From positions 62,001-126,000 of the forward strand of contig NZ_JAMBOL010000010.1 in assembly GCF_023715605.1 (NCBI RefSeq): 64,000 bases of DNA. Direction: 5' to 3'. The DNA comes from Halalkalibacter oceani. GTDB taxonomy: Bacteria > Bacillota > Bacilli > Bacillales > Bacillaceae_D. Shown piece by piece: positions 34,121 to 51,300 of this stretch. Under the pieces are notes generated by a model. It worked only from the letters and a program-made list of their open reading frames with translations. It searched no databases and was not told where the DNA came from. Position 1 is the first letter of the stretch. Every line of letters starts with the position of its first letter. A program made the position numbers and the translations under genes.

Positions 34121-34235
34121 AGGGGGTGGGAAAAGGTTGTTCTCTTACCTTTTCCCACCCCCAAACTAATGAGCGGAACCGTCACGATCTTTTATCTCAC
34201 AACGGACTTGCGGCGCGTGAAGCCATGTCGACTCC
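34121..34235 (+). repeat. Composite intergenic repeat, shortened copy
   Basis: Perfect hairpin GGGGGTGGGAAAAGGT...ACCTTTTCCCACCCCC (34122-34164), then AATGAGCGGAACCGTCACGATC and CTCACAACGGACTTGCGGCGCGTGAAGCC. The left arm of the inner palindrome is missing compared with the copies at 6275 and 28866. The hairpin serves folE2 and, in reverse, the amidohydrolase gene. Confidence 0.7.
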
Positions 34236-34299: not shown

Positions 34300-35451
34300 T
34301 CAAGACAGTTTCTGCTTTCCATCCTTCATTACCCATTCGACATTCAGCAATGCTTCACTGTCCGCCTGAACATTTCCCCGAACTGCCACAATATCCGCTT
34401 TCTTTCCTGCATGTAATGATCCGATGCTATTTTCCATTTCGCACAGCTCAGCAGCACGCGATGTAATTCCTTGTAATGCTTTTTCAAGCGGTTCGCCAAT
34501 GTTCTCCAGGAAGATGACATCCTTTGCCAGTTCCCCATGTGTCGCATCCGTTCCAACCGCATAGCGAACCCCTGATTGAAGCAGCCTTTTATGGGTGTCG
34601 AGCACCTCTTCTTTATTGCACTGGAAGCTGAGAGCGACGCTGTGCGGGACCGTATTCCATCTGTCCTGATGAAAGAAGATGCTCGGCGTTAACACGACCC
34701 AGCGACTTTGTTTTATCATCTCTTCAATTTGACGATCGTCAGCAAAATAGGCGTGTTCGATCACATCGACTCCTTCCGCGATGCAGTCGGTCAGCCCTTT
34801 TCCACCGATCGCATGCGCCGCGACTTTCTTTCCGACCTGATGAGCTTCCTCGACGGCGACGCGGATTTCGGCCGCTGTCATATAAGAAGGAAGGAACTCT
34901 CCTTTCCGTACGGTATCCGTCGTGAAAATTTTAATAAAATCAGCTCCATGAAGCAGGTTTTCACGTACGGCCGTTCTAATTTGCTCGCCGCCGTTAAAAA
35001 CCGTACCTACAGAGCCGTGCGCATGGCTTGCTTTAATGCCACGTGTACACGTCACAATTCGCGGCCCCTCGACGATCCCCTGCTCAACCGCCTCCTTCAG
35101 GTACACATCAATGAAATTTTTATCGCCGAGACAACGGGACGTCGTAATGCCGCTGGCAAGATCGATTTTCATATTTTCAATACCGCGCAATAGTAAGAGC
35201 GGGTCCGGATCGTTCATCAATTGCGGGTGGTTTTCAAGCTGCGGTGAGAGCGAGAGATGATCGTGGGCATCGATAAAGCCCGGTAAAAGCGTGCAGCCGT
35301 CCAGATCGATGACTTCCCTGCCCTCAGGAATTTCAATCTCGCCAAATTTAAGCTCAATAATCGTATCACCTTCAACCGTCAGCACCGGGTCCCGCGTAAA
35401 CGTTCCTTCTATACTATCAAACAGCCAGCTCGCTTTAATGTACATGGGCAT
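34300..35451 (-). CDS. Amidohydrolase-family metal-dependent hydrolase
   Basis: Of 383 residues. The TIM-barrel amidohydrolase signs are PGFIDAHDHLS (metal HxH, about residue 65), DFIKIFTTD with a Lys on strand 4, AAHAIGG and IEHAYFAD (two His), and GTDATHGEL (Asp). This is the imidazolonepropionase/prolidase-like branch; substrate unknown, a lactone or amide is possible. I chose ATG 35451, nine bases past AAAGAGGA; ATG 35460 sits on that site. It overlaps the upstream epimerase gene by 17 bases, so the two are coupled. It is the last gene of the TRAP-linked operon. Confidence 0.85.
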   Translation of the reverse strand: MPMYIKASWLFDSIEGTFTRDPVLTVEGDTIIELKFGEIEIPEGREVIDLDGCTLLPGFIDAHDHLSLSPQLENHPQLMNDPDPLLLLRGIENMKIDLASGITTSRCLGDKNFIDVYLKEAVEQGIVEGPRIVTCTRGIKASHAHGSVGTVFNGGEQIRTAVRENLLHGADFIKIFTTDTVRKGEFLPSYMTAAEIRVAVEEAHQVGKKVAAHAIGGKGLTDCIAEGVDVIEHAYFADDRQIEEMIKQSRWVVLTPSIFFHQDRWNTVPHSVALSFQCNKEEVLDTHKRLLQSGVRYAVGTDATHGELAKDVIFLENIGEPLEKALQGITSRAAELCEMENSIGSLHAGKKADIVAVRGNVQADSEALLNVEWVMKDGKQKLS

Positions 35452-36415
35452 CGACTTCATTCCTCTTTTTCAATTCCGTTTTCAGCCAAGTAAAATATGC
35501 TTCGAGCGACTCTCTGAAGTCAGCAGAGGGCTTGTAGCCGATCTGTTCCTTATAATTGGAGACAAGCGGCCCCCTGATTGGTGCCTGAAGCACGAATGGC
35601 TCAGCCCCTTCGCCGACATTGATGTTGCTGGCGGGGCATTTTTGCTGAAGAAACTCAATGATTTCCTGGTTGGCGTATAATTGTTCACTGCTTAAATGCA
35701 CGCATGGAGGTGCCTCATCTGTTTCGAGCAGGCGGACGATGCCTTCCGTCACATCATCGACATACGTGAAATTGGCGATGAAATCCCGGCCCGAGCGCTC
35801 CTCTAATTGATTTTCAGTCAGAACTTTATACGTATAATAGGCAATCGGGCCATTGCTCCAGCGCGGCTCTTTGACTGTCGGTAAGGGGCCGAATACCCAG
35901 GAGACGCGAATGTTGATCGTTTCCATTCCATAATTCACACGGTAGCAATGCAGCAGCTCCTCACTTAAGCGCTTCGTCGTCGCGTACGTATTCATCGGCG
36001 TCGCCGGCACCGTTTCATCAATTGGATCCGTTGACGTTTGTTTCCCGAAGACCGAACCGGAGCCAATATAAATGAACTTTTGAACTTGGTGGATTCTCGC
36101 CAGTTCCAATAAGCTTAATGTGCCGATTGTGTTCGTCTCCACCGCATCTGTAGGATTAGCTTTGCAATACATTCCATTTAGATTGGCTGCCGCATGGATG
36201 ATCGCATCAAAGCGATGCTTCGCAAAAAGAGCGGTAACGGTAAAATGGTTCGTCACATCGCCTTGTTCAAATTCGATCGAATCACTACCGGTAAAGAAAT
36301 CCGTATCCCGGTCAATCGTTTTATCAAACAGAACAACGTGATGCCCTTCCTGCGCCAGCCTTTTTACCGCATTCGCTCCGATCAGACCGAATCCTCCCGT
36401 AACCAAAATCTTCAT
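35435..36415 (-). CDS. NAD-dependent epimerase/dehydratase (extended SDR)
   Basis: 326 residues. VTGGFGLIGANAVKRL binds NAD, Ser in GSGSVFG and the YATTK pair give the catalytic residues (Tyr about 148), and VSWVFGP is the conserved turn. Extended SDRs include sugar epimerases and uronate dehydrogenases. In a cluster with acid-sugar dehydratase and TRAP transporter, an aldose or uronate oxidation is plausible (inference). Upstream gene ends 31 bases away. Confidence 0.87.
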   Translation of the reverse strand: MKILVTGGFGLIGANAVKRLAQEGHHVVLFDKTIDRDTDFFTGSDSIEFEQGDVTNHFTVTALFAKHRFDAIIHAAANLNGMYCKANPTDAVETNTIGTLSLLELARIHQVQKFIYIGSGSVFGKQTSTDPIDETVPATPMNTYATTKRLSEELLHCYRVNYGMETINIRVSWVFGPLPTVKEPRWSNGPIAYYTYKVLTENQLEERSGRDFIANFTYVDDVTEGIVRLLETDEAPPCVHLSSEQLYANQEIIEFLQQKCPASNINVGEGAEPFVLQAPIRGPLVSNYKEQIGYKPSADFRESLEAYFTWLKTELKKRNEVDAHVH

Positions 36416-36445
36416 TCGCCCAGCTCCTCTCTCTGTAAACGTTTT

Positions 36446-37333
36446 TTATTTCGCCGCCTGTTCAAAATCATCGCAGATTTGTTGAAAAATAGCCGTATAG
36501 TCAATACCTCCCCCGTAGTGATCCACCAATCGGGCAAACATTTCTTCTATTTTCCGTAAAAGCGGCAATTCGAGCCCTTCCTCCCGCGCTTTATCGACAG
36601 CAAGACGGACATCCTTCAGCAGCAGCTCCGCTTTAAAGCTTGGAGAGTAATCTCCGGCGATCATTCCAGCTGCCTTGTGCTCCAAATGCCAGCAGTTCGC
36701 TCCTCCCGACTGTAAAACATCGCGGACATGGTAAAGGTCGAGTCCCTCCTTTTTGGCAACCGCCAGCGCTTCACTCATTGTTGTCACCGTGCCAGCGACC
36801 ATGATTTGATTGCATATTTTCGTTGTTTGCCCGGCGCCGCTTCCTCCCATATACATGACCCTTCCACCTAATACATCAAGGATATCCTTTACTTCAGAAA
36901 AATAATGACGCTCTCCCCCAACCATAATTGATAAAGTGCCTGCTTCCGCCCCGACGCGGCCGCCGCTCACCGGGGCATCGATAAAGCCGACTCCTTTTTC
37001 CTGAAAAGCATGATGGATTTCTTTTGTGACATTGGGTGAGATACTGCTCATATCAATCACGATCGTACCCGGTGCCGCATAGTGAATCACCGCCTCAGCA
37101 CCGTCTGTTAAAGCCGTTTTGACATGAGGGGAATTCGGAAGCATTGTAATCACAATCTCATTTCCTTCGATCAGCTGTTCAACCGTTTTTGCTCTTTTCG
37201 CACCTTGTCTGATCAACTCCTCAACCGGCTGTTCCACCAAGTCAAAAACGGTAACATCATAACCGGCTCGAACTAAATTACCTGCCATTGGTTTTCCCAT
37301 AATTCCCAACCCGATAAACGCGATTTTCTTCAT
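36446..37333 (-). CDS. 3-hydroxyisobutyrate / tartronate-semialdehyde-type dehydrogenase
   Basis: The protein has 295 residues of the beta-hydroxyacid dehydrogenase family. GLGIMGKPMAGNLVRAG binds NAD(P), DAPVSGGRVGAEAGTL is the substrate loop, and GQTTKICNQI holds the catalytic lysine (about residue 171). Known activities are reduction of tartronate semialdehyde to glycerate or oxidation of 3-hydroxyisobutyrate. The former would suit hydroxyacid catabolism next to a glycolate regulon, but this is inference. Confidence 0.88.
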   Translation of the reverse strand: MKKIAFIGLGIMGKPMAGNLVRAGYDVTVFDLVEQPVEELIRQGAKRAKTVEQLIEGNEIVITMLPNSPHVKTALTDGAEAVIHYAAPGTIVIDMSSISPNVTKEIHHAFQEKGVGFIDAPVSGGRVGAEAGTLSIMVGGERHYFSEVKDILDVLGGRVMYMGGSGAGQTTKICNQIMVAGTVTTMSEALAVAKKEGLDLYHVRDVLQSGGANCWHLEHKAAGMIAGDYSPSFKAELLLKDVRLAVDKAREEGLELPLLRKIEEMFARLVDHYGGGIDYTAIFQQICDDFEQAAK

Positions 37334-37422
37334 GCCGTCTCTCCTTGTCTCTTCGTTTTACAGAAGAAGGCCAGAAGTCACAAACTGCTCACTTCCAGCC
37401 TTTTTCTTCTTATCGCAATTCG

Positions 37423-38487
37423 TTACTCCGCCGCCCGAATCCGTTCGACGAGGTCCGGAGCCCACTCCCCTTGAAACTGCTCGACAATATTGCTTTCCTC
37501 CAATTTCTTGGCAAACGCATCACGGTCCACGTCATCAATTATCGTCGTTCCATCGTCGATAATCTGCTGTCTGTAAATTTCCTCGTTTTCTTTGACGAGC
37601 TGCTTCTGATAGGTCCCCGCTTCTTCAATCGCTTCAACGACTTGTGCCTGCATCTCTTCCGGGAAGCTTTCAAACGTATCATTGTTGATGACAACGACCA
37701 TTGGGGCGATTAAATGCTGGGTCGTCATCACATAATTTTGCACCTCATGCAGCTTTGACGTATAAATCATATCGAGCGGATTTTCCTGCCCGTCAACAGT
37801 TTTTTGCTCCAGCGCGACGTACAATTGATCAAATGCCATCGGCGTCGGATTGGCGCCAAGGATTTTCCATGCTTCCACGACTAATGGAATTTCAGGAACC
37901 CGCAGCTTCATTCCATTTAAATCGTCCGGCGTCCGGATTTCCGTATTGGCCGTCAAGTTTCGCGGCCCGCGGTGCCAGTAATCCAAAATGCGCGAATTAA
38001 GGGACTCATTGATTGCCGCATTAATTTCATCGCCGACTTCTCCATCAAGCACGCGATCTAAATGGTCGGTATCTTTAATTAAAAACGGCAATGACAACCC
38101 GCTGTATTCCGGGGCGAACATTCCGAATATCGCATCGCCGGTGATAACCATGTCAACGGTTTGCAGCGACATTCCCTCAAGCAAGTCGCGTTCCCCGCCG
38201 AGCTGAGCATTGGCGAAAATGTTGACCGTCAGCTCTCCACCTGTTCTTTCCTCAATCAGTTCCTTGAACTTCTGTGCTCCTAAATCCGTCTCACTGTCAG
38301 TCGCGTTAATATAGCCGATATCGATCGAGTAACTGCCGCCGCCTTCCGCCGGTGCTTCCTCTCCCTGATCCCCGGCATCTGCACCCGGGTCTGCTTCCGT
38401 CTGAGTGTCGGAGCTTCCCCCGCATGCAGTGAGCAAGAATGCAAAGAGCAAGGCCATTACAGTAAAGAAAAATTTCGCTTTCATCAT
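37423..38487 (-). CDS. dctP: TRAP transporter substrate-binding lipoprotein DctP
   Basis: 354 residues with a lipoprotein signal (LLTACGGSS) and an acidic Glu/Gly/Asp linker. The DctP fold signs are clear: a central Arg in DLNGMKLRVPEIP (about 170, the carboxylate-binding residue), NPTPMAFDQLYVALEQKTVDGQENPL. These proteins bind organic or sugar acids. It follows the DctQ and DctM genes, as usual for a TRAP set. Tandem ATG at 38487/38484. Confidence 0.93.
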   Translation of the reverse strand: MMKAKFFFTVMALLFAFLLTACGGSSDTQTEADPGADAGDQGEEAPAEGGGSYSIDIGYINATDSETDLGAQKFKELIEERTGGELTVNIFANAQLGGERDLLEGMSLQTVDMVITGDAIFGMFAPEYSGLSLPFLIKDTDHLDRVLDGEVGDEINAAINESLNSRILDYWHRGPRNLTANTEIRTPDDLNGMKLRVPEIPLVVEAWKILGANPTPMAFDQLYVALEQKTVDGQENPLDMIYTSKLHEVQNYVMTTQHLIAPMVVVINNDTFESFPEEMQAQVVEAIEEAGTYQKQLVKENEEIYRQQIIDDGTTIIDDVDRDAFAKKLEESNIVEQFQGEWAPDLVERIRAAE

Positions 38488-38592
38488 TAACCCTCCTTAA
38501 AATGTACGATCAACAAGGAATAAGAGCCGTGAGATGACTTCACAAAATCTGGCACCCCTCCTTTCAGTAGCGGGCATTCATCTGTCCATTTT

Positions 38593-39864
38593 TTATAAAA
38601 GATTCGGCAGCCAAAGACTAATCACCGGTAAGAACGTTAAAATGAGCAGGTTAATAATCAAGACGAGTAAGAAAGGCAGAATCCCTTTCGTAATTTCTTC
38701 GAGCGTAATCCCGGCGATCCGGCTTGAGATGAACAAGTTGACCCCAACTGGCGGTGTCACCATCCCCATCGCTAAATTGACGATCATAATAATCCCGAAG
38801 TGGACCGGGTCGACGTCAAACGTTAGCGCAACCGGCAAGAGAATCGGCGCTAATATAATAATCGCTGCGCTCGTCTCAAAGAACATGCCGATAAAAAAGA
38901 GAAACAGATTGACAAGAAGCAGGAAGATGACTTTACTTGTCGTGAAATCGGTAATGAGCGAAGCCGCTTGCTGTGGAATCATCCCCTTCGTCATAATCCA
39001 GCCAAACAGTCCGGCCGCTGAAACAATGATCATAATAATTGCTGATAAGACGGCCGATTCCCCGAGGATTGGCAGGAGATCCTTTATTTTAATTTCTTTG
39101 TAAATCCATAAGCCGACGATCAGAGCGTAAGCGACTGAAACGGCCGCAGCTTCTGTCGGTGTGAAGATTCCTCCGTAAATCCCGCCTAAAATAATGACGG
39201 GCATCAGCAAGGCCAGTGTCGACTCCTTCAGAGCGATCCATTTATCCTTCCATGTCGTTTTTACATCGTTCGGATAGCCTTTCATTTTGGCAAGGATCGT
39301 AACGGTAATCACAAGCAGCAGCCCGATAATCAGCCCGGGGACAATCCCGGCGAGAAACATCGCGCCAATCGATGTTCCGGTTGACACCCCGTAGAGAATC
39401 ATCGGAATACTCGGTGGAATAATGACGCCCAGTTCACCGGAAACGGCCTGGGAAGCGGCGGCAAAGCGCTTGCTGTAGCCTTTTTTGATCATCGCCGGAA
39501 TAAGGATCGCCCCTAAAGCGGCAACCGTCGCCGCACTGGAGCCGGAAATCGCGCCAAAAAGCATCGAGGCGACGATTGTCACGACAGCCAATCCACCAGA
39601 CATATGCCCAATAAACGCTGATGCCAGGTTGACGAGGCGGCGTGAAATTCCCCCGGTCCCCATGATTTTTCCAGCTAATACGAAAAAGGGCACCGCCAAC
39701 AGCGCAAAGGAATCAATCGAGGTAAACATCCGCTGTATCAACAATTCATACGGTAAATTCCCGTCAATGAGAATCGCCACAATGGAAGAAAGGCCAAGGG
39801 AAAAGGCGATCGGCACACTCAGCAGCATCAGCACAAGCAAAGTGATAAACATAAAGAGCGCCAT
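38593..39864 (-). CDS. dctM: TRAP transporter large permease DctM
   Basis: 423 residues with about 12 membrane helices and the family elements SGSSAATVAALGAI, PPSIPMILYGV and GMVTPPVGVNLF. It drives uptake with the sodium or proton gradient. The gene ends 105 bases before dctP and starts one base after the dctQ stop. Confidence 0.94.
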   Translation of the reverse strand: MALFMFITLLVLMLLSVPIAFSLGLSSIVAILIDGNLPYELLIQRMFTSIDSFALLAVPFFVLAGKIMGTGGISRRLVNLASAFIGHMSGGLAVVTIVASMLFGAISGSSAATVAALGAILIPAMIKKGYSKRFAAASQAVSGELGVIIPPSIPMILYGVSTGTSIGAMFLAGIVPGLIIGLLLVITVTILAKMKGYPNDVKTTWKDKWIALKESTLALLMPVIILGGIYGGIFTPTEAAAVSVAYALIVGLWIYKEIKIKDLLPILGESAVLSAIIMIIVSAAGLFGWIMTKGMIPQQAASLITDFTTSKVIFLLLVNLFLFFIGMFFETSAAIIILAPILLPVALTFDVDPVHFGIIMIVNLAMGMVTPPVGVNLFISSRIAGITLEEITKGILPFLLVLIINLLILTFLPVISLWLPNLL

Positions 39865-39865
39865 C

Positions 39866-40360
39866 TTACTCCCCCCTTTCTTCTACTTGAAACGTTCGAA
39901 TTAACACGCTGAATACGTTCAGTAAGATGAGGAGTCCACCGACCGGAATGGCTGCATACGGGATCCACATCGGGAGCCGCAATGCTGTTGATCGCTGAAC
40001 GGCGACTTCCTGTACCATGCTGAAGCCGTAAATGATTAAATAGAGACAAAAAACAATCGAAAAAAAGAGAACGACAACTCTGAAGGCCTTTTCGATTTTT
40101 TCTGGAATGAGCTGCATAATCGCTTCAACAGAGATCAGCTCCCGTCTGCCTGCCGCGATGCTCGCCCCGAGAAAAACAGACCAGATGCTAATATATTTCG
40201 TCGCCTCTTCTGTCCAGCTCAATGATTGATTGAGCGCATAACGGTAAAAGACTTGCGTACAAATAAAAATCGTCATCACACCAAGTAAAATCCCGACAAA
40301 GATCAGCATCCATTTATTCAGTCGCTCCATAAAACTGACATACGGTTTGAACAGCTGCAT
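39866..40360 (-). CDS. dctQ: TRAP transporter small permease DctQ
   Basis: 164 residues with four membrane helices; the signature SLSWTEEATKYISIWSVFLG (about 52-71) is typical. The ATG at 40360 lies eight bases past AAGGGGAG; the GTG at 40369 is inside that site. First gene of the dctQMP-reductase-epimerase-amidohydrolase unit. Confidence 0.92.
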   Translation of the reverse strand: MQLFKPYVSFMERLNKWMLIFVGILLGVMTIFICTQVFYRYALNQSLSWTEEATKYISIWSVFLGASIAAGRRELISVEAIMQLIPEKIEKAFRVVVLFFSIVFCLYLIIYGFSMVQEVAVQRSTALRLPMWIPYAAIPVGGLLILLNVFSVLIRTFQVEERGE

Positions 40361-40413
40361 CTTCACCACTCCCCTTCTCTGAATTCTCCTAAAGGTTCAA
40401 TTTACCGCCAAAA

Positions 40414-40427
40414 AGAAAGCGCTTACT
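40414..40427. promoter_or_regulatory. Cre-like catabolite control site before dctQ
   Basis: AGAAAGCGCTTACT, or AGTAAGCGCTTTCT on the minus strand, matches the CcpA site TGWAANCGNTNWCA except for the two outer bases. It lies 54 bases upstream of the dctQ start, where binding would block the leftward promoter. Confidence 0.6.
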
Positions 40428-40445
40428 TTTATTAAAATGCTATAC

Positions 40446-40458
40446 ACTACCATACTAC
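40446..40458. promoter_or_regulatory. GntR-operator-like motif before dctQ
   Basis: ACTACCATACTAC shares the nine-base core ACTACCATA with the palindrome at the gntR promoter (44857-44876). It may be a second, weaker site of the same regulator. Confidence 0.4.
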
Positions 40459-40596
40459 TTGTATCTATATGCGCCTCTGGACAAAATCTTTCAATAAATC
40501 TATTCGCCTGATAAAAGACCTTTAGGAGTAAGAAGACTATGGTGCTTCTACCATTTCCATCCTGGCATCATTCATCTGACTGGTCTTTCATCCAGG

Positions 40597-41823
40597 TTAT
40601 GCGCTGACGATCGGCTTTTGGTAGCGCGATACCCGCTTCGACATATCTTCACGATCAAACACTTCCGGGCGTAAGGCGGTCCCAAGACCAGGGCCCTCCA
40701 ACGGGTAGACATAGCCGTCCTTGACGAGAGGAACTTCTGTGACGAGCTCCTTGTACCAGCCTGAATAGAAAGCGCGCACGCATTCCTGGACAAAGGCATT
40801 CGGTGCATTAATCGTCAAATGGACATCGACGGCAAAGGAGACCGGACCAACGCAGTCGTGCGGTGTAACGGGAACTTCATATGTCTCAGCGAGCGTCGCG
40901 ATCCGTTTTCCTTCTGAAATCCCTCCGGTAAAGGTTGGATCATAAATGATCACCCCTGCTGCGTTCCGTTCTAAAATATCACGGAAGGCCCAGCGCGTTC
41001 CGAGCGTTTCGCTCGCCGCCGTCCGCACGCGTGTTGAACGGGCAAACTCCTGCAACGCATCAAGATTATCCATATTAATCGGATCTTCATACCAAAATGG
41101 CTCAAATTCCTCCAACGCTTGCGCGATCTGCTTCGCTGTCGGCAAATCCCATAACGAGTGCAGCTCGACCATAATTTCGATTTTGTTGCCGACCCGTTCC
41201 CGTATTTGTCTAAAAGGTTCAAGCGCTTTGTTCAAATCGGCCGGCGAAATATAACGCCCTTTCGTTGCTTCCGCATATAAATCGAACGGCCAGATTTTCA
41301 TTCCCATAAACCCTTCCTCAACTAGGCTTTCGGCTAAGTCACCGGCATGATAGAGAAAGCCGTCCAGATCCTCATATGGCCCTTGCGCATCACCTACTCC
41401 CCAATTATCAACAGGCAGGCTGGCATGCTTCGGGCGCTTACGCGTGTAATGATAGCCGGCACACGTATTGTAGGCTTTGATTTTCTCGCGGCATTTTCCG
41501 CCAAGCAGCTGGTAGATTGGCTGCTTTGTTACTTGCCCGAAAATATCCCACAGCGCGATATCCAACGCAGACCGCCCACGGTTTTCCACCCCCGTGCTGC
41601 GGGAGCCGATAAATCCCACCATTGCCTGCCAATGCCGTTCAATCGCCAGCGGGTCTTCTCCAAGCAATACAGGAGCGCCTGATTCATGAATCCAGGCTTC
41701 CACCGCTTCTGCGGCAAAATACGTTTCCCCAAGTCCAATATGACCTTGATCGGTGTGAACCTGGACAAAACAAATATTCGGAAACTCTTCTAAACGGATC
41801 GTTTCGATCTGAGTAATTTTCAT
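40597..41823 (-). CDS. Mandelate racemase/muconate lactonising-family dehydratase
   Basis: The product has about 408 residues, enolase superfamily. Metal ligands are Glu/Asp in IMVELHS (about 213), FWYEDPIN (about 239) and AASETLG (about 265). A general base pair is formed by Lys in MGMKIW and His in VTPHDCVGP (about 320). The HD pair and the length resemble galactonate/gluconate-type acid-sugar dehydratases, which remove water to give 2-keto-3-deoxy acids. Which acid is used cannot be read. Start ATG 41823, after GTGGTGG. Confidence 0.85.
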   Translation of the reverse strand: MKITQIETIRLEEFPNICFVQVHTDQGHIGLGETYFAAEAVEAWIHESGAPVLLGEDPLAIERHWQAMVGFIGSRSTGVENRGRSALDIALWDIFGQVTKQPIYQLLGGKCREKIKAYNTCAGYHYTRKRPKHASLPVDNWGVGDAQGPYEDLDGFLYHAGDLAESLVEEGFMGMKIWPFDLYAEATKGRYISPADLNKALEPFRQIRERVGNKIEIMVELHSLWDLPTAKQIAQALEEFEPFWYEDPINMDNLDALQEFARSTRVRTAASETLGTRWAFRDILERNAAGVIIYDPTFTGGISEGKRIATLAETYEVPVTPHDCVGPVSFAVDVHLTINAPNAFVQECVRAFYSGWYKELVTEVPLVKDGYVYPLEGPGLGTALRPEVFDREDMSKRVSRYQKPIVSA

Positions 41824-41847
41824 CTTTTCCACCACTTTCTTTTTTAT

Positions 41848-42795
41848 TTAATAGTTTGCTTGCAAATCAACCTGATTTTTTAACGGTTTATTTGCAAGGA
41901 AGTTAGCGACATTGTCAAGCACAATCCGAAACACTTTCTCCATATAATGATCGGAATTTCCGGCAATGTGGGGCGTGAGAAAGACATTCTCCATCTCCCA
42001 CAATGGACTTTCGGGCCCAAGCGGCTCCTTTTCAAATACGTCCAGCGCCGCGCCGCCGATTTGGCCGCTTTCCAGCGCGGTGATTAAATCCGCTTCCTTC
42101 ACAACATGGCCTCGCGCCAAATTGATGAAAAAGCAATCCCGCGGCATCGCAGTAAAATGCTCCTGACGGATAAAATGCTTCGTCCGAGGGGTCAATGGCA
42201 GCAGGACAATGACAAATGAGCTTTCCGGTAAGAGCGTCTCCCATTGTTCCTCTTTAACGATGCGATCAAAGTGAGGCTTGCTTGCGCCTCCGCGGCTAAC
42301 CCCATTGACGTTCATCCCGAACACCTGGCACATCTCGGCAATCGCCGAGCCGATCGCGCCGGCACCGACAATCGTTACCGTTTTTCCGGCTAACTCTCCA
42401 CCGATAAACCCGCCTTCCCATTGATGCTTTTTCTGCAGCCCCCGATAGTGTAATAGCTTGCGGGTATGGGCGAGCATCATTCCGAGCGCGTATTCTCCCA
42501 TTTGTGAGCCGTGAATTCCTTTTGCGTTTGTCACGGTAATTCCTCGTTCCGCAATTTTCGCAAACGGAATATTTTCGACGCCGGCGGTCGTGAGCTGAAG
42601 CCATTTCAGCCTCGGTGCCTTTTCGATCGACTCCGGGTTGAAGTTCAAATGATCAGACAACACAATGTCAGCCTCTTCTAAATAAGGCTGCGCCTCCCTT
42701 TCTGAGTGACAGTGACAAATTGTGATCTCAGGATAGCTCTCTCTTAATTCATTCAATTGTTTTTCCGGAATGTTGATCGTTGTTACGAGTTTCAT
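41848..42795 (-). CDS. D-2-hydroxyacid dehydrogenase
   Basis: 315 residues. VTIVGAGAIGSAIAEMC binds NAD(H) (about 137-153), Arg in INLARGHVV (about 224), Glu in DVFEKEPLG (about 253) and His in LTPHIAGNS (about 272) make the catalytic Arg-Glu-His set. Such enzymes interconvert 2-keto acids and D-2-hydroxy acids. ATG 42795 is five bases past GAGGGAGG. It lies between the LarA-like and dehydratase genes with short gaps. Confidence 0.9.
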   Translation of the reverse strand: MKLVTTINIPEKQLNELRESYPEITICHCHSEREAQPYLEEADIVLSDHLNFNPESIEKAPRLKWLQLTTAGVENIPFAKIAERGITVTNAKGIHGSQMGEYALGMMLAHTRKLLHYRGLQKKHQWEGGFIGGELAGKTVTIVGAGAIGSAIAEMCQVFGMNVNGVSRGGASKPHFDRIVKEEQWETLLPESSFVIVLLPLTPRTKHFIRQEHFTAMPRDCFFINLARGHVVKEADLITALESGQIGGAALDVFEKEPLGPESPLWEMENVFLTPHIAGNSDHYMEKVFRIVLDNVANFLANKPLKNQVDLQANY

Positions 42796-42812
42796 AAGTC
42801 CCTCCCTCAACG

Positions 42813-44114
42813 CTACTTGATTAGATTTCCGTTCTCGTCAAACGTCCAGGAGACAGCTGTCTCTCCCACCTCCATTTGGGCATGCCCTGCCGCCTCGTTG
42901 ACTAAATTTTCAGAAATTAAAATTTGGTCAAGCTCGAGTGTATTTTTAATGCGGACCACTTTTACATCGTTTATCTTTCTTCGCCCGGCCGTCCGGATCG
43001 CTGTTACAATCGCTTTCTGATCAGTGGCGAGCATAACCGGCAGCTTGGCGCCGTTAATTTCGACCGCCGTCGTTGAATTAGCATACAGCGCGGCAAAATC
43101 GATGCTTTCGACCGTCCTGACGGTCGTATAGTCCGCCAAACCAATTCCGGAGGCGTTGCCTTTTGTTTCTTTCGTTAAATTCAGCACGACAATTTTATTG
43201 ATCGGCGGGGCATCAAACACTAATGACTGATTACAGGAGGAACGTCCGATAATATTCGAGTCCATCCCGCTGCCGCTTATGTTCTTCCCGATTTCATCCA
43301 CGATCAGCACATCAATTTCCTTACACAGCAGCTTCGGCATCAGCCGCTTCGCTTCTGCTAGCAGCTCTTTTTCCCTGCCGGGCAGCTGGTCTTTTAACAC
43401 GATTTCGATATGGGCCGTTTCGTGAAATGAATTTTCAATAATGCCTACACCAAACAGAAACGGCGTATGCTCAATAATATGACGGCCTACTGCCGGTATC
43501 AGCTCGGCGAAGTCTCCCATCCCTCCTTTATGAAGATAGCTCGCTCCTTTATGCTTGCCGAGGCCAATGCCAAGCATCTTCATGATACCGCTTTCAATTT
43601 CACCTTTAAAATCAGTATGCGGCTTAATTCTCGCAATGACGATGATTCCCTCCGCTTCTTCATACGCCAACCGATCAAAGTATACCTCAACGTCGCCAAA
43701 GGCTTTGCCGAGGTAGACCGTCTCCATGCTCGCCCTGACCGGGGCGCCGACTTCCGCTTCCGTAATGCCGTAGCCTGCTAAAATCTTCGCCTGACCCTCG
43801 GCTTTTCCCGCGCCATGACTTCCCATGGCCGGCACAATAAACGGCTCAGCCCCCAATGCTTTTAATTCGGTAATGGTCGCTTTGACAATCGCCTGCAAGT
43901 TTGTAATGCCCCTGCTGCCGACTCCGACCGCAATTTTCATCCCCGGCTTGATCTTTGTCGCCAGCTGCTTTCGCTGAGACTCCGTGTGCATCAGTGCCGG
44001 AATCGCCTGCGCCTCTATTTTCGTCCTGGCAAACTTTTGCCTTGCCGGATACATCGCAGGTAATTCCAGCTCAAATCCGCCTTCCAGTTGAAACTCTTCA
44101 ATTTTCAGCTCCAT
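42813..44114 (-). CDS. LarA-type nickel-pincer isomerase homologue
   Basis: 433 residues of the lactate racemase (LarA, DUF2088) superfamily. The N-terminal half has KIAVGVGSRGITN and PAMGSHGAGKAEGQ with the conserved His, then IARIKPHTDFKGEIESG (His and Lys about 190-200) and GLGKHKGA, where lysine and histidine anchor the nickel-pincer cofactor in LarA. Homologues isomerise diverse 2-hydroxyacids; the sugar-acid-type branch is suggested by context. No larB, larC or larE maturation gene is in this window. GAGGAAAGTT-type weak site precedes ATG 44114. Confidence 0.82.
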   Translation of the reverse strand: MELKIEEFQLEGGFELELPAMYPARQKFARTKIEAQAIPALMHTESQRKQLATKIKPGMKIAVGVGSRGITNLQAIVKATITELKALGAEPFIVPAMGSHGAGKAEGQAKILAGYGITEAEVGAPVRASMETVYLGKAFGDVEVYFDRLAYEEAEGIIVIARIKPHTDFKGEIESGIMKMLGIGLGKHKGASYLHKGGMGDFAELIPAVGRHIIEHTPFLFGVGIIENSFHETAHIEIVLKDQLPGREKELLAEAKRLMPKLLCKEIDVLIVDEIGKNISGSGMDSNIIGRSSCNQSLVFDAPPINKIVVLNLTKETKGNASGIGLADYTTVRTVESIDFAALYANSTTAVEINGAKLPVMLATDQKAIVTAIRTAGRRKINDVKVVRIKNTLELDQILISENLVNEAAGHAQMEVGETAVSWTFDENGNLIK

Positions 44115-44159
44115 CTGTTAACTCCTTTCTATGACGTAGTCGACCAGCTTCATCAGTAC

Positions 44160-44843
44160 CTATGATTTCGAAAAAAATTCAGTATATGTCTCCTTGTACA
44201 GTTCAATGATTTCTACTGTGCTCTCTTTAATATGCTTGCTCAATTGAAACTGGGCCATCTCGACATCCTTTGCGATGACCGCATTCAAAATCTCTTCATG
44301 CTCTTCAATCAGTTTGCTCGTCTTTCTCGTCGCCAGCAAACTGAGATAACGGACGCGATCAAGATGCAGCTTTTCTGCCTGAATAACGGACCAGACATTT
44401 TGATAGCCGCTCATTTCAATCAGCTTCTCATGATACTTTTCATCAAAGTAATAGAAAGTTTCGCGCCCTTTTTCATCCTGGAATTCTTTTTGTTTAGCAA
44501 TCAGCGCCCTTAATGCGGTGATATCATCCTGATTCAGCCGGGCAATGCTTTGGCGAAGAGCGGCGCATTCTAACGATTCCCGGACGAAGAGTGATTCTTT
44601 CACTTTATCAATGTCGATATAGGAAACGAACGTCCCTCTTTGCGGATAAATTTCCAGCAGCCCTTTTTCAGAAAGTCTAATGAACGCTTCTCTAATCGGC
44701 GTTCTACTCACATCGAGCATCGCCGACAGCTCTTTCTCCGATAAGCGTTGCCCCGGCAAAAATTCCAGCGAAATAATCGCTTCTTTGATTCCTTCGTATA
44801 CTTGGGAATGGATCGATTTCGTTTTATCAATGGTTAGTTTCAT
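44160..44843 (-). CDS. GntR/FCD-family transcriptional regulator
   Basis: 227 residues. N-terminal winged helix (SIHSQVYEGIKEAIISLEF, then ELSAMLDVSRTPIREAFIRL) and C-terminal all-helical FCD domain with metal-type His (about residues 140-220). FadR-subgroup regulators sense small carboxylic acids. It is the first gene of the hydroxyacid block, 45 bases before the LarA homologue, and is preceded by a palindrome over its own promoter. ATG 44843 follows AAAGGTGA. Confidence 0.9.
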   Translation of the reverse strand: MKLTIDKTKSIHSQVYEGIKEAIISLEFLPGQRLSEKELSAMLDVSRTPIREAFIRLSEKGLLEIYPQRGTFVSYIDIDKVKESLFVRESLECAALRQSIARLNQDDITALRALIAKQKEFQDEKGRETFYYFDEKYHEKLIEMSGYQNVWSVIQAEKLHLDRVRYLSLLATRKTSKLIEEHEEILNAVIAKDVEMAQFQLSKHIKESTVEIIELYKETYTEFFSKS

Positions 44844-44856
44844 TAGGATCACCTTT

Positions 44857-44876
44857 CATACTAATATGGTAGTATG
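44857..44876. promoter_or_regulatory. Putative GntR operator
   Basis: CATACTA and TAGTATG are perfect inverted arms separated by six bases. The site overlaps the likely -10 of the leftward promoter whose -35 is TTGACA (44894-44889, minus strand), so autorepression relieved by a metabolite is likely. Confidence 0.7.
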
Positions 44877-44932
44877 TTACCCTCTTGATGTCAAGAAAGT
44901 TTTTTGTTTTAAATGAATTTTCTGATTTATCA

Positions 44933-44978
44933 CAAAAAAAAGCCTGGAACAAAGGTAGGTTCACCTTTTCCCAGGCTA
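44933..44978 (-). terminator. Terminator after glcB region (repeat hairpin)
   Basis: On the minus strand AGCCTGGGAAAAGGTG pairs imperfectly with ACCTTTGTTCCAGGCT and is followed by eight T. It lies 170 bases downstream of the glcB stop; it belongs to the repeat family. Confidence 0.65.
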
Positions 44979-45148: not shown

Positions 45149-47335
45149 TCATTTACTATATAGGCGTTGCGCAGCTTTTTCCTTAAACTCAATCCGACGA
45201 CGATGCAAAATTGGTTCTGTGTAACCGCTTGGCTGTTCTTTCCCAAGGAAAATCAAATCTTTTGCTGCTTGAAAGGCAATCGACTGCTCAAAATTAGCAG
45301 ACATTGGACGATACGCCGGGTCACCGGCATTTTGCTCGTCAACAACCTTTGCCATCCGCTCCAACGTTTCAATTACTTGCGCCTCCGTGCAAATCCCGTG
45401 GTGAAGCCAATTGGCAACATGCTGGCTCGAGATACGTAATGTCGCACGATCCTCCATTAATCCAATATTATTAATATCCGGTACCTTCGAGCAACCGACG
45501 CCTTGTTCAACCCAACGAACAACATAGCCCAGAATACCCTGTGCGTTGTTATCAAGCTCTGCCTGAATCTGTTCCGGGCTCCAATTTGTATCTTCCGCGA
45601 GCGGAATTGTCAGAATCTCATCTATATAATTTCCGTTTTGTATTTTTAATTCATTTTGAATCTCAACAACATTTATTTCGTGATAATGAAGCGCATGAAG
45701 CGTTGCTGCTGTAGGAGAAGGGACCCAGGCTGTATTGGCACCTGCTTTGATTTGCCCGCCTTTTTGTTCAAGCATGGCCTTCATTAAATCAGGCATTGCC
45801 CACATTCCTTTTCCAATTTGCGCCTTTCCTTGTAAACCCGCCGCCAAACCAATTTGGACATTTGATTTCTCATATGCTTGCAGCCACGCTGAAGCTTTCA
45901 TATCATTTTTACGGACCATCGTTCCAGCTTCCATCGATGTATGAATTTCATCACCGGTGCGATCCAAGAAGCCTGTATTAATAAAAACAACCCGTTCTTT
46001 CACTTCATAAATACAATTCTTTAAGTTAAGGGACGTTCGCCGTTCTTCATCCATGACACCAATTTTCAAGGTAAAGCGCTCCAGCCCTAACAAATCTTCC
46101 ACGCGCGCGAATAATGTATTGGCAAATGCCACTTCTTTAGAGCCGTGCATTTTTGGTTTCACGATGTAAATCGAGCCGGTTGTTGAATTCTGATACTTTC
46201 CATTTCCGAGCAGCGTATGTTTAGCGATTAAACTCGTTACAACCGCATCCAAAATTCCTTCAGGAACTTCATTTCCATCCTTATCAAGTACAGCGTTGAT
46301 CGTCATCAAATGCCCGACATTACGGACAAGCATCAGCGAGCGGCCGCGAAGCGTTACTGTTCCGCCATTCGCTGTTGAATAAACCCGATCCGGATTTAAT
46401 GTTCGCGTCACTGTTTTTCCAGCCTTTTCAAATGATGCTGATAAATCACCTCTCATCAAGCCAAGCCAGTTGCGATAGACGACCACTTTATCCTCTGCAT
46501 CAACCGCTGTTACCGAATCTTCACAATCCATGATGGTGGTGATCGCCGCTTCAACAAGAATATCTTTCACACCGGCTTTATCCGTTTTACCGATCGGGTG
46601 ACGGCGATCAATCTGAATGTCAACATGAAGACCATGATTGTTTAATAATATCGCTGTAAGCTCACCCTCTTTTTCTTGAAAACCTCTGTATTTTTCGGCG
46701 GCTTGCAATGTCGTTTCTTCACCATTTGCCAGTGTAGCCGTAAATGCTGCACCAGCCTTGTATTCTGTTACATCGTGATGCGATCCCGTTTGAAGCGGGA
46801 ATGTTTTATCAAGAAAGTCTTTTGCAAAGGCGATGACTTTATTCCCGCGCGCTTCATTGTAGGTGGCCAAGCGTTCCGCACCACCCTCTTCAGGTATCAC
46901 GTCCGTACCATATAAAGCATCATACAGACTTCCCCAGCGCGCGTTCGCGGCATTGATGGCATACCGCGCATTATTCACTGGAACAACTAACTGCGGGCCA
47001 GCTTGCTGTTTAAATTCTAAATCGACATGATCCGTTCTAACTTGATAATCTTCTTTCTCAGCCTCCAGATAGTTGATGTCTTTTAAAAATTCTTTGTAAA
47101 CAGCAGGATCAAAAGAGTCTCGATGCTGCTTATGCCATTGATCAATTTGCTGCTGAATTCGATCACGCTCTGCTAACAAAGCTTTATTTTCTGGTGCGAG
47201 CTCTTCAATAAGTCTCGAAAAGCCATCCCAAAACTGCTGTTGATCAACCCCGCTCTCTGGCAAAGCCTCTTGATTAATAAACTCAAATAACTCCGTCGCG
47301 ACTTTTAATTGACCTACTTTTTCGTACTGTTGCAT
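45149..47335 (-). CDS. glcB: Malate synthase G
   Basis: 728 residues, the usual size of the single-chain GlcB form that condenses glyoxylate with acetyl-CoA. Conserved segments include [29 protein letters not shown] (catalytic Arg region), [10 protein letters not shown] and [19 protein letters not shown] 47335 follows AAGGAGGAT. A three-half-site motif shared with glcE lies 50 bases upstream, tying it to the glycolate regulon. Malate synthase removes glyoxylate made by GlcDEF. Confidence 0.95.
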
Positions 47336-47382
47336 CGGTTCATCCTCCTTATTTTTGAGTGTACCCTTAATCAATCTTTTTT

Positions 47383-47408
47383 GTTTCCTAATAAGAAACG
47401 ATGTTTCT
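47383..47408. promoter_or_regulatory. Shared glc operator, glcB copy
   Basis: GTTTC (47383-47387), GAAAC (47395-47399) and GTTTC (47403-47407) with conserved spacing; AGAAAC-GAT-GTTTCT is an inverted pair. The same arrangement lies before glcE. Likely the site of the IclR regulator at 47623. Confidence 0.65.
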
Positions 47409-47622
47409 CTTTACTACAATCATAGCACACCATCCAAAGAATTTCCAATTACTTTTTCATTAATTTAAATTTTTAGATAATGGCACAAAGCAGCGTACGT
47501 GAAGCCGTTATCATTTATAGGAGGGAGGCTGAAAGTGCAAGACGTGTAACGGGCAAGCCCGCTCCCTCTTGAGTAAGCTCCCAGCCCCTTAAGGATTGGC
47601 TTTTCTAAAATCAAAGATTGGC

Positions 47623-48375
47623 TTACTCCGTATAGCCTAATCTCGCTGATATTTTCTTGCCAATTTCGATAATCAATTGCTGCAAATCATGTAAACGTTC
47701 CGCCGTCATTCGAAGGGTGGGCCCTGAAATACTTACAGCTGCTGTCACCCTTCCGAGGTGATCAAAAATCGGCGCGGCGATACAGCTAATCCCGGCTTCA
47801 TTTTCCTCTATTTCAACGGCATAGCCTTGTTTGTAGATTTTCTGCAATTCTACAAGAAACGCTGCTTTGTCTGTAATTGTGTTTTCCGTATGTTTCGGTA
47901 AGCCCTGCTTTTGGATTATTGCCTCTACCTCCTGTTCAGTCAAATGGGCAAGGATCACTTTCCCGACACTCGTGCAATGAATTGGAGCTCTGCGTCCAAT
48001 CTTCGAGTGCGTGCGAAGCGTTTCATTCCCTTCCAATTTCTCAATGTAATACACTTCCCCTTGATCAAAGACGACCAGATGGATGACCTCATTTGTCTGA
48101 CGCTCTAATTCCTCTAAATAGACACGTGCCTGACTGCGCAGATCAATGGAATCAAGCAATAATGAGCCGAGCTCCAAATATTTATAGCCTAAGCGATACT
48201 TTTTCGTCGTTTGATCTTGTTCAATAAATCCATGACTAACAAGTGTGCTCAAAATTTTGTAGATCGAGCTTTTATTTAATTCGATCTGAGATGCTAATTC
48301 CGTTACACCTAGTCCGTCTTTATTTTGACTCACTAAGCTGATAATTCTTAGTGCTCGGTCTACCGACTTAACCAT
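47623..48375 (-). CDS. IclR-family transcriptional regulator (glycolate regulon)
   Basis: Its 250 residues comprise an N-terminal winged helix (ALRIISLVSQNKDGLGVTELAS, then KSSIYKILSTLVSHGFIEQ) and a C-terminal effector domain (APIHCTSVGKVILAHL, GISCIAAPIFDHLGRVTAAVSISGP). It sits between malate synthase and the glycolate oxidase genes on the same strand, so it is the obvious regulator of both. Its own upstream region lacks the GTTTC motif. Confidence 0.9.
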   Translation of the reverse strand: MVKSVDRALRIISLVSQNKDGLGVTELASQIELNKSSIYKILSTLVSHGFIEQDQTTKKYRLGYKYLELGSLLLDSIDLRSQARVYLEELERQTNEVIHLVVFDQGEVYYIEKLEGNETLRTHSKIGRRAPIHCTSVGKVILAHLTEQEVEAIIQKQGLPKHTENTITDKAAFLVELQKIYKQGYAVEIEENEAGISCIAAPIFDHLGRVTAAVSISGPTLRMTAERLHDLQQLIIEIGKKISARLGYTE

Positions 48376-48493
48376 ACATAACCTCCATTACGCTGCTTCA
48401 TTAGTAGGGACATTATACCATAAGATAGCATCTCCGATTAAAGTACGGAGGTCGATATGGTCATTTTCCTTCGTCATCTCGTTGACATCAACC

Positions 48494-49942
48494 TTAGACC
48501 TTTTCTGCCTGTTTAGCCAGCTTCACTTCCACACATCTTCCCGGTGAAGGAAACAGCTTCCCGTCGTTGAGCAGGCGATCCGGGTTGAAAACCTCTCGAA
48601 TATCCGTCTGGGCAGAAATTTCTTCTTCCGAGAAAATATAGCGCATCTCATTCATCTTCTCAATCCCGACACCATGTTCACCGGTGATCGAGCCGCCGAC
48701 ATCTGCACATACCTTCAGGCAAGCGCTTCCTACTTCTAATGCTTTTTCAGCTTGACCGGGAATCCGCGCGTCAAACAAAATGAGCGGGTGGAGATTTCCG
48801 TCTCCAGCATGAAAAATATTCGCAATTCGCAAACCACTCTCTTTGCTAATTTGATTGATGCACGTTAGCACCTCAGGCAGCTTGCTTCGGGGAATGACTC
48901 CGTCCTGGACGAGATAATCAGCGGAAATCGCCCCCATCGCGCCAAAACCCGTTTTACGATTAGCCCACCATCTGGCTCGTTCGCCCTCATCCTGCGCCAC
49001 CTTCACTTCTCGAACATGATGCCGTTGACAAACGGTGAGAATATGGTCAATTTGCTCCTCTATCCCGGCAGAAATCCCGTCTACTTCGATCAAAAGAAGC
49101 GCTTCTATATCAAGCGGGTGCCCGACCGGAAAGGCAGCTGACTCAACACCTTCAATCGCCGTTTTATCCATCATTTCTAGTGCAGCCGGCACAATCCCGG
49201 CAGAAATAATATCGGATACAGCCTGGCTCCCAGCCTCAACCTTATCAAAATACGCCAGCACGGTCTGCTTTGCTTCAGGATTTTTAAGAATCCGCACCGT
49301 AATCTTCGTCACAATCCCAAGCGTCCCTTCCGAACCGGTGAATAAGCCTAGTAAATCATAGCCGGGTGCATCCGGAATGCCTCCCGCTCCAATTTCAATA
49401 ATGTCTCCATTCGGCAGGACAATCTCAAGTCCAAGAATATGATTCGTTGTGACCCCGTATTTCAGACAATGAGCACCGCCGGCATTTTCAGCGACATTGC
49501 CGCCAATCGTACAGCAGGATTGACTGGAAGGATCCGGCGCATAATAATACCCTTTATCGGAGATGGAATTGGTTAGTTTAAGATTAATATAGCCCGGTTC
49601 AACAACAGCGCGCCGATTTTCTAAATCGACTTCCAAAAGCCGCTTCATTTTCACGAGACTGATAATCACTTCGCCATTTACCGGAATCGCGCCCCCACTT
49701 AGTCCTGTGCCGGCTCCGCGCGCTAAAAACGGCAGCCGATGGCGTGCGCAGTAACGCACAATCGCAGCGACCTCCTCTGTCGTATTGGGAAAGACGACAG
49801 CTTTCGGCAAATGCTTATGGATCGTGAACCCGTCGCAATCATACGCTAATAAATCTTCACGTTCGTAAAGAATGGAGTAAGGACCTGATACGAGCGCTGC
49901 CAGTTCACGAATATGGGGATCTTTTGTTTTCAGTTTACTCAT
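48494..49942 (-). CDS. glcD: Glycolate oxidase FAD subunit GlcD
   Basis: 482 residues, FAD-linked oxidase of the VAO type. FLARGAGTGLSGGAIP (about 67-82) and CTIGGNVAENAGGAHCLKYG bind the flavin, and ITGEHGVGIEKM near the C-terminus is typical of GlcD. With GlcE and GlcF it oxidises glycolate to glyoxylate at the membrane. ATG 49942 follows AGGAGGGG; the longer frame lies within glcF. It overlaps the glcF stop by eight bases. Confidence 0.93.
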   Translation of the reverse strand: MSKLKTKDPHIRELAALVSGPYSILYEREDLLAYDCDGFTIHKHLPKAVVFPNTTEEVAAIVRYCARHRLPFLARGAGTGLSGGAIPVNGEVIISLVKMKRLLEVDLENRRAVVEPGYINLKLTNSISDKGYYYAPDPSSQSCCTIGGNVAENAGGAHCLKYGVTTNHILGLEIVLPNGDIIEIGAGGIPDAPGYDLLGLFTGSEGTLGIVTKITVRILKNPEAKQTVLAYFDKVEAGSQAVSDIISAGIVPAALEMMDKTAIEGVESAAFPVGHPLDIEALLLIEVDGISAGIEEQIDHILTVCQRHHVREVKVAQDEGERARWWANRKTGFGAMGAISADYLVQDGVIPRSKLPEVLTCINQISKESGLRIANIFHAGDGNLHPLILFDARIPGQAEKALEVGSACLKVCADVGGSITGEHGVGIEKMNEMRYIFSEEEISAQTDIREVFNPDRLLNDGKLFPSPGRCVEVKLAKQAEKV

Positions 49943-51299: not shown

Positions 51300-51300
51300 C

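Follow-up and report, generated by a model that had tools for sequence, protein, structure and literature searches.

Which acid may Halalkalibacter oceani take up and degrade with the ten-gene cluster at positions 34300-44852, minus strand, of the 64,000-nucleotide stretch analysed here (the window; contig NZ_JAMBOL010000010.1, positions 62,001 to 126,000), and what is a LarA-like isomerase doing among its genes? The operon is real and probably functional, and probably couples a nickel epimerase resembling GntE to a dehydratase of the enolase superfamily. On balance we favour a regulated operon for the use of a sugar acid as carbon source, in which the acid would be imported, inverted at carbon 2 by the nickel-pincer isomerase, dehydrated and handed to a shared kinase and aldolase. 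The substrate class is most likely a hexonate; D-gluconate/D-mannonate is put forward tentatively as the first candidate, with L-idonate/L-gulonate or D-galactonate/D-talonate ranked behind it.

Computation gave the gene families, the modelled fold and conserved key residues of LarA, the genes for its cofactor, recurrent neighbourhoods and sister clusters; from these we infer the substrate, the following reactions and their direction, and the sharing of a lower pathway. A TRAP transporter would import the sugar acid, and the isomerase would invert its carbon 2, making both C2-epimers usable, while a D-2-hydroxyacid dehydrogenase may bring the corresponding 2-keto acid into this pool. One of the epimers would be dehydrated by the mandelate-racemase-type enzyme to a 2-keto-3-deoxy acid, whose phosphorylation and cleavage could fall to a 2-keto-3-deoxygluconate (KDG)-kinase-like protein and a 2-keto-3-deoxy-6-phosphogluconate (KDPG) aldolase encoded ~60 kb away in a second cluster, named cluster A below.

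Organisation of the operon

The ten co-directional genes are all intact in the open reading frame (ORF) list of the window. In order of transcription they encode a GntR/FCD transcriptional regulator (44160..44852; PF00392 and PF07729 over cut-off), the LarA-like isomerase (42813..44114), the D-2-hydroxyacid dehydrogenase (41848..42810), the enolase-superfamily protein (40597..41835), the TRAP small permease DctQ (39866..40369; PF04290), large permease DctM (38593..39864; PF06808; TIGR00786 456 bits, cut-off 268) and solute-binding protein DctP (37423..38487; PF03480; TIGR00787 245 bits, cut-off 175), a beta-hydroxyacid dehydrogenase (36446..37333), an extended short-chain dehydrogenase/reductase (SDR) of the NAD-dependent epimerase/dehydratase family (35435..36415) and an amidohydrolase-superfamily protein (34300..35460). 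The regulator gene starts with GTG at 44852, an ATG at 44843 being equally possible. Pfam and NCBIfam assignments agree with the family names given in a preliminary description, made from the letters alone, and bear out its ten-gene list. The TRAP transporter is complete, dctQ, dctM and dctP being adjacent and all three Pfam families over cut-off. The intergenic gaps, in the same order, are 45, 2, 12, 227, 1, 105, 89, 30 and -26 bases; this spacing is operon-like, eight gaps ranging from -26 to 105 bases, with the exception of the 227 bases between the dehydratase gene and dctQ. The D-2-hydroxyacid dehydrogenase (PF02826/PF00389; NF041369 248 bits, below the cut-off of 400) probably interconverts a 2-keto and a 2-hydroxy acid at C2.

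The nickel-pincer isomerase

At E 1e-3 no LarA model of Pfam matched the isomerase and DUF362, the one family reported, stayed below its cut-off; PDB sequence searches, single and profile, returned no usable match. The protein belongs to group 22 of the nickel-pincer-nucleotide-dependent isomerases in NCBIfam (NF052515; 515.2 bits, cut-off 400), and fold comparison of its predicted structure shows a LarA fold. The two catalytic histidines H100 and H166 and the cofactor-binding R68, K179 and H195 are invariant; the residue roles are those listed in PMC11770544 (here and below, this paper and PMC7583248, PMC6978723 and PMC5788505 are cited for parts of their text), and they were mapped by motif spacing, not by structural superposition. 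Genes for the cofactor are present in the genome: LarE (362 bits, cut-off 150), LarB (306, cut-off 175), LarC1 (224, cut-off 90) and, by Pfam PF01969, LarC2 (173, cut-off 22). We propose that the isomerase would act as a C2 racemase/epimerase with the nickel cofactor, presumably a sugar-acid C2-epimerase.

At E<=1e-50 there are four relatives in the window genome, the isomerase itself included, and six in H. oceani P106. All four pass the group-22 cut-off, the three paralogues at 531-556 bits, and the two scored among the five further P106 relatives do so at 531-556 bits as well. Assayed gluconate epimerases of the LarA superfamily are LarAH15, 19 and 20 and, weakly, 10 (PMC7583248, PMC11770544). 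The group-22 model finds no match in Thermotoga maritima or Corynebacterium glutamicum, the hosts of LarAH20 and LarAH19, and "group 22" goes unmentioned in the main texts of the LarA literature searched, whose supplementary tables may discuss it.

The window genome has larC in two parts, larC1 and larC2, which lie convergently on opposite strands with a 13-base overlap (contig C113, L125:2649-3853), and therefore LarC would be made as two separate chains. An identical convergent split occurs in H. oceani P106 (L128:1597-2801), and in Domibacillus the two genes are co-directional. An invertible larC2 segment was considered and rejected: two imperfect inverted pairs were found, neither of which flanks larC2.

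Genomic neighbourhoods of group-22 isomerases

Eighty of 385 relatives of the isomerase and nine fetched loci, 89 in all, were offered for a tree. Thirteen had no intact LarA ORF under the overlap filter, which left 76 loci and, with the window, 77 rows. Neighbourhoods were scored over at most 8 kb to either side, contig ends shortening the flanks of some loci. A clade of 53 rows (46 Paenibacillaceae, 7 Bacillaceae) consists of gluconate/hexuronate loci, with neighbours that include gluconokinase (48 rows), an SDR of the mannonate-oxidoreductase type (45), the 6-phosphogluconate dehydrogenase Gnd (37) and glucuronate isomerase (8); these counts are not independent, since the rows share ancestry. 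Gluconokinase had first been scored in 51 loci, and the three outside the clade, at 26-28% identity, are other kinases of the family; the SDR had first been scored in 47, two of them outside the clade at 31% identity. Against NCBIfam, two representative loci gave 671.9 and 462 bits for gluconokinase (cut-off 648.6), 286.5 and 259 for mannonate oxidoreductase (cut-off 281), 782 for Gnd (cut-off 413) and 624 for glucuronate isomerase (cut-off 387).

The other 24 rows are diverse. Fourteen of them have a 2-hydroxyacid dehydrogenase nearby and four an enolase-superfamily dehydratase (the window, H. oceani P106, Paenibacillus cymbidii and cluster A), whereas neither gene is near any row of the large clade. 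The window isomerase falls in a five-row clade (support 100/99) with that of H. oceani P106 and those of three Paenibacillus, and in P. cymbidii the gene next to LarA encodes a galactonate dehydratase (376 bits, cut-off 311). These loci, together with the paralogous clusters of the same genome described below, support what had been claimed for the operon from the letters alone, namely uptake of an acid, epimerisation at C2 and dehydration.

Outside the 77 rows, plasmid pSPTER of Sporomusa termitida (L158, 4702-17925) carries a group-22 LarA (532 bits, cut-off 400) and, 3.2 kb from it, an enolase-superfamily protein that is 31% identical to the window dehydratase and scores 257 bits with the galactonate dehydratase model, below the cut-off of 311; two UxaA-family genes, a GntR gene and a tripartite tricarboxylate (TctABC-type) transporter are also present. 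One further group-22 LarA of H. oceani P106 has as neighbours an aldolase of the HpcH type and a TRAP system of the TAXI type (L129, labels by eye).

The dehydratase and its relatives

The enolase-superfamily protein (PF13378 185 bits, cut-off 29; PF02746 51 bits, cut-off 22) is a proposed acid-sugar dehydratase of the mandelate racemase type. It contains the motifs MVELHS, WYEDP, ASETLG, YDPT and TPHDC at residues 222-328, which may hold the three acidic metal ligands and the His-Asp dyad. Its nearest solved chains, 2pod (E 1.7e-153) and 4dx3 (E 8e-137), match over nearly the full length and are named by superfamily alone, mandelate racemase/muconate lactonizing enzyme; a literature search by the two PDB codes found no function.

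At 53-56% identity, relatives of the dehydratase occur on alphaproteobacterial plasmids, for which 25 of 1331 records were listed and nine, opened by choice, gave eight annotated regions. An SDR adjoins the dehydratase in seven of the eight; an L-idonate 5-dehydrogenase is annotated nearby in five, TRAP genes are present in five and a 2-hydroxyacid dehydrogenase in three, one annotated phosphoglycerate dehydrogenase counted in. One plasmid SDR gave 308 bits with an unspecific SDR model and 280-285 with gluconate 5-dehydrogenases, all below cut-off, and one plasmid L-idonate dehydrogenase gave 343 bits with L-idonate 5-dehydrogenase, also below cut-off. In Aneurinibacillus tyrosinisolvens a 76% identical relative lies ~9 kb from a group-22-like LarA (45%), with genes for a DctP and, as labelled by eye, an altronate-dehydratase-like protein in between. 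These surroundings point to a hexonate near gluconate, and not to one single acid. A 45% identical paralogue of the dehydratase stands beside a GntR gene in the window genome and in the genome labelled G812.

Sister clusters and the lower pathway

The operon lies at 96.3-106.9 kb of its contig (C11). About 60 kb from it, cluster A (C11:26478-35767) comprises a TRAP transporter, a 2-hydroxyacid dehydrogenase, a LarA 50% identical to the window isomerase, a galactonate dehydratase (726.7 bits, cut-off 311), the KDPG aldolase Eda (179.9, cut-off 156) and a KDG/2-keto-3-deoxygalactonate (KDGal) kinase-like protein (278.9, below the cut-off of 400). Its genes predict the use of D-talonate/D-galactonate. 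The Eda of cluster A is the one KDPG aldolase (PF01081) over cut-off in the window genome, where KDG aldolases of the dihydrodipicolinate synthase type were not searched for genome-wide. The operon was said to lack the KDG kinase and aldolase usual for sugar acids, and neither a KDG kinase nor a KDPG aldolase is found inside it; for the genome as a whole the statement fails for the aldolase, and the candidate kinase is below its cut-off. Lower steps of the right kind are thus encoded on the operon's own contig, since cluster A has both a KDPG aldolase and a KDG-kinase-like protein, and we suggest that they may serve the window operon.

Cluster B (L125, contig C113) contains larE, larB, larC1, a 2-hydroxyacid dehydrogenase, a PdxA-like gene (375.9 bits, cut-off 290), iron-dependent alcohol dehydrogenase, aldehyde dehydrogenase, LarA, TRAP genes and a D-threonate-kinase-like gene (301 bits, below the cut-off of 450). 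Its LarA is predicted from this context to be a D-erythronate/D-threonate C2-epimerase; a relative in Rubrobacteraceae also adjoins a PdxA-like gene. The fourth LarA of the genome (C36) has no cluster of the sugar-acid type around it. Two of the four LarA genes lie <=5 kb from a dehydratase gene, for which a rough estimate gives a chance of ~1e-3 with five or six such genes in the genome, duplication of a whole cluster not being allowed for. A sugar-acid cluster without LarA stands at the start of C46 (L147:170-6794), with a galactonate dehydratase (374 bits, cut-off 311), TRAP genes, a GntR-like gene, KduD (356, cut-off 339) and a threonine-dehydrogenase-like dehydrogenase.

These paralogues suggest a wider role for the family in Halalkalibacter. 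The nickel-pincer isomerase may be a plug-in stereo-adaptor by which both C2-epimers of C4-C6 sugar acids are funnelled to one enzyme, a reading that we hold as possible while giving it less than an even chance. There are four copies here and six relatives in H. oceani P106, most of them in acid clusters of their own, which on this reading would be a hexonate cluster with the window dehydratase, one of the galactonate type (A) and one of the D-threonate type by the cofactor genes.

Observations that weigh against the proposed pathway

Several observations count against the sugar-acid operon as set out above. The dehydratase meets no NCBIfam cut-off, its best model being galactonate dehydratase (PRK14017; 218.9 bits, cut-off 311), and at that score it was not assigned as DgoD. 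In P. ginsengarvi and P. mesophilus the surroundings of the nearest LarA relatives lack a sugar-acid dehydratase, and no LarA relative was seen in the nine plasmid regions opened. S. termitida DSM 4440, from which the malate racemase LarAH62 and the small-acid racemase LarAH66 were assayed (PMC11770544), carries at least one group-22 gene, and if this gene is either of the two, group 22 would include a racemase of C4 acids. The best solved relative of DctP by sequence is 4pc9, and the fold of DctP does not discriminate between ligands: binders of sialic acid, uronates and aldonates all score within ~2 Z, and because of this we draw no substrate claim from it. A literature search for the code 4pc9 gave nothing relevant. 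The 4pc9/4pcd structures reportedly contain D-mannonate/L-galactonate, a point that enters no substrate claim.

As to the candidate substrate, two proteins of the UxuA (mannonate dehydratase) family are encoded in the genome and would already make KDG from D-mannonate, so that D-mannonate alone would need no such operon. Gluconokinase is absent from the operon and its genome-wide best score is 510 (cut-off 648.6). With two UxuA-family proteins and no gluconokinase over cut-off, an outlet for gluconate by way of LarA and/or a dehydratase would make sense.

The beta-hydroxyacid dehydrogenase, the extended SDR and the amidohydrolase have no clear step in the proposed pathway. The first (PF03446, PF14833; TIGR01505 291 bits, below the cut-off of 341) is closest to tartronate-semialdehyde reductases, with 1vpd as best PDB match, and would fit an aldarate better. 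It thus favours an oxidative uronate/aldarate route, in which the SDR would resemble a uronate dehydrogenase, the amidohydrolase would open the lactone, dehydratase and isomerase would act on the aldarate and tartronate semialdehyde would be reduced by the beta-hydroxyacid dehydrogenase. In keeping with such a route, a group-22 LarA of H. oceani P106 (L127) lies beside the 5-dehydro-4-deoxyglucarate dehydratase KdgD (440 bits, cut-off 374), and LarAH32 weakly epimerises D-arabinarate epimers (PMC11770544). The L127 locus also has a tripartite tricarboxylate transporter (label by eye). The window dehydratase, on the other side, scores lower with the talarate/galactarate model than with galactonate dehydratase (120 versus 219 bits), and the operon has no aldolase. 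The SDR (PF01370, 155 bits) reached no NCBIfam cut-off and bore no uronate-dehydrogenase name among the matches listed (25 of 39 families), and its PDB matches are sugar-nucleotide enzymes (best E 2.7e-26). The amidohydrolase (PF01979; NF051886 Xaa-Pro dipeptidase 225 bits, below the cut-off of 500) has its nearest solved relatives among peptidase- and amide-hydrolysing enzymes of the Xaa-Pro dipeptidase/arginine carboxypeptidase type, and it is dispensable. We regard the uronate/aldarate route as unlikely.

Conservation of the gene set

H. oceani P106 shares nine of the ten genes in synteny, in the same order and at 89-98% identity. The missing gene is the amidohydrolase, of which ~39 bp of the 5' end still align before the sequences diverge, and because of this remnant the gene was probably lost there. 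The preliminary description had included hydrolysis of a lactone or amide; given this loss and the peptidase- and amide-hydrolysing relatives, such a step is not supported as part of the pathway, the lactonase role was downgraded and the protein is treated as accessory. Among 41 genomes of the family, dehydratase matches at E<=1e-50 occur in three: the window genome, G812 (97%) and one with a partial match of 41%. At E<=1e-100, drawn samples of 397 genomes of the order and 398 of the phylum gave one each, the window genome both times. Conservation of the set, proposed earlier as a check, thus has a mixed outcome: one other genome shares nine genes, and none of the remaining family genomes has a close dehydratase. 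Since the gene set is found in two genomes only, its co-selection is little tested, and this counts against the pathway as well.

The same facts bear on the idea that the genes are a loose collection of similar catabolic functions without a single pathway, in which only the core of isomerase, dehydrogenase, dehydratase and TRAP transporter cooperates. It is consistent with the full set being confined to two genomes, with loss of the amidohydrolase in one of them, and with the scarcity of relatives of the SDR and of the beta-hydroxyacid dehydrogenase near LarA, each being found in two of the 77 loci, namely those of the window and of H. oceani P106. Tight spacing, bounding elements and the conservation of nine genes at 89-98% speak for a functional unit, and a loose collection appears quite unlikely.

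Operon boundaries and the upstream glycolate genes

Directly 5' of the regulator gene a promoter-like TTGACA-17-TACCAT was found by motif scan (44866..44894, minus strand; 10 of 12 positions), in a region where such sites are not above chance (11 against 12.7 expected by shuffling). The -35 reads TTGGCA in H. oceani P106, where the surrounding region aligns. Overlapping the -10 is an inverted repeat read by eye, CATACTA-N6-TAGTATG (44857..44876, minus strand), retained in H. oceani P106 with one change, which may be a candidate operator of the GntR protein. Further upstream, between the operon and a malate synthase G gene, lies a terminator-like hairpin with a T-run (44933..44977, minus strand; arms 44941-44952/44966-44977), also kept in H. 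oceani P106. At the other end, a GC-rich hairpin read by eye between the amidohydrolase gene and folE2 (about 34123..34162, minus strand) is the probable operon end. The terminator scan of the region listed neither hairpin.

Directly upstream, at 45149-52626 and on the operon's strand, are genes for malate synthase G and for glycolate oxidase subunits (glcD-, glcF- and glcE-like), together with one for a regulator of the IclR family, a block conserved in H. oceani P106. In that genome an extra gene of 400 amino acids, malic-enzyme-like by eye, stands between the malate synthase G and GntR genes. Membership of these genes in the pathway was considered and dropped because the conserved hairpin and T-run separate the two units.

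Their position in both genomes is an argument for a route in which LarA and the D-2-hydroxyacid dehydrogenase would act on a small 2-hydroxy acid of three to five carbons and feed glycolate oxidase and malate synthase G. The models closest to the dehydrogenase are those of D-2-hydroxyacid, phosphoglycerate and glyoxylate dehydrogenases, and many assayed LarA homologues take small acids (PMC7583248, PMC11770544). The hairpin between the units argues against it, as does the dehydratase, which would require a polyol acid; moreover, among the 76 LarA loci (flanks <9 kb) malate synthase G is found in H. oceani P106 only, and GlcD relatives only there and, distantly, in L010. A small-acid route is distinctly improbable.

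Comparison with known pathways and significance

The sugar-acid operon that we prefer resembles several known systems in part. In the GntE hexuronate route, proposed and assayed for T. maritima, a nickel-pincer LarA homologue converts mannonate to gluconate, and gluconokinase follows (PMC7583248, PMC6978723). Common to both is a C2-epimerase of the LarA superfamily within sugar-acid catabolism, and the group-22 relatives in Paenibacillaceae and Bacillaceae have the gluconokinase context of this type of route; the window epimerase differs in its partners, which are a dehydratase, a 2-hydroxyacid dehydrogenase and a TRAP transporter and do not include gluconokinase. The L-gulonate pathway of Haemophilus influenzae likewise imports an aldonate by TRAP and later dehydrates to KDG; it differs in using two dehydrogenases and UxuA, with kinase and aldolase in the neighbourhood and no LarA named in the text cited (PMC5788505).

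The D-galactonate (De Ley-Doudoroff) pathway consists of a dehydratase, KDGal kinase and KDPGal aldolase. The operon shares with it an enolase-superfamily dehydratase, and in cluster A each of the three enzymes has a counterpart, in addition to LarA; the operon itself differs in lacking kinase and aldolase and in a dehydratase that reaches 219 of 311 bits. Routes for L-idonate and L-gulonate in which enolase-superfamily enzymes dehydrate D-gluconate/D-mannonate with low efficiency were reportedly described by Wichelecki in 2014. The window dehydratase is of the same superfamily, and its plasmid relatives have genes for L-idonate 5-dehydrogenase and gluconate-5-dehydrogenase-like proteins as neighbours; the operon differs in having no L-idonate 5-dehydrogenase and in its nickel isomerase, which would invert C2.

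On the stereo-adaptor reading, to which we give less than an even chance, this operon would count as the first pathway described that couples a nickel epimerase to a mandelate-racemase-type dehydratase, in the use of a rare hexonate, and P. cymbidii and the S. termitida plasmid would be further cases. The proposed pathway would suggest a concrete function for nickel-cofactor isomerases of a large group that is absent from the LarA activity tables in the parts cited (PMC7583248, PMC11770544), dehydratase, transporter and kinase partners would be supplied for coupled assays, and 2pod and 4dx3 might gain a substrate. The more interesting point is that the paralogous nickel epimerases are mostly tied to different sugar-acid clusters, which would give a cell a reason to keep several of them: it would no longer matter which configuration a sugar acid has at C2.

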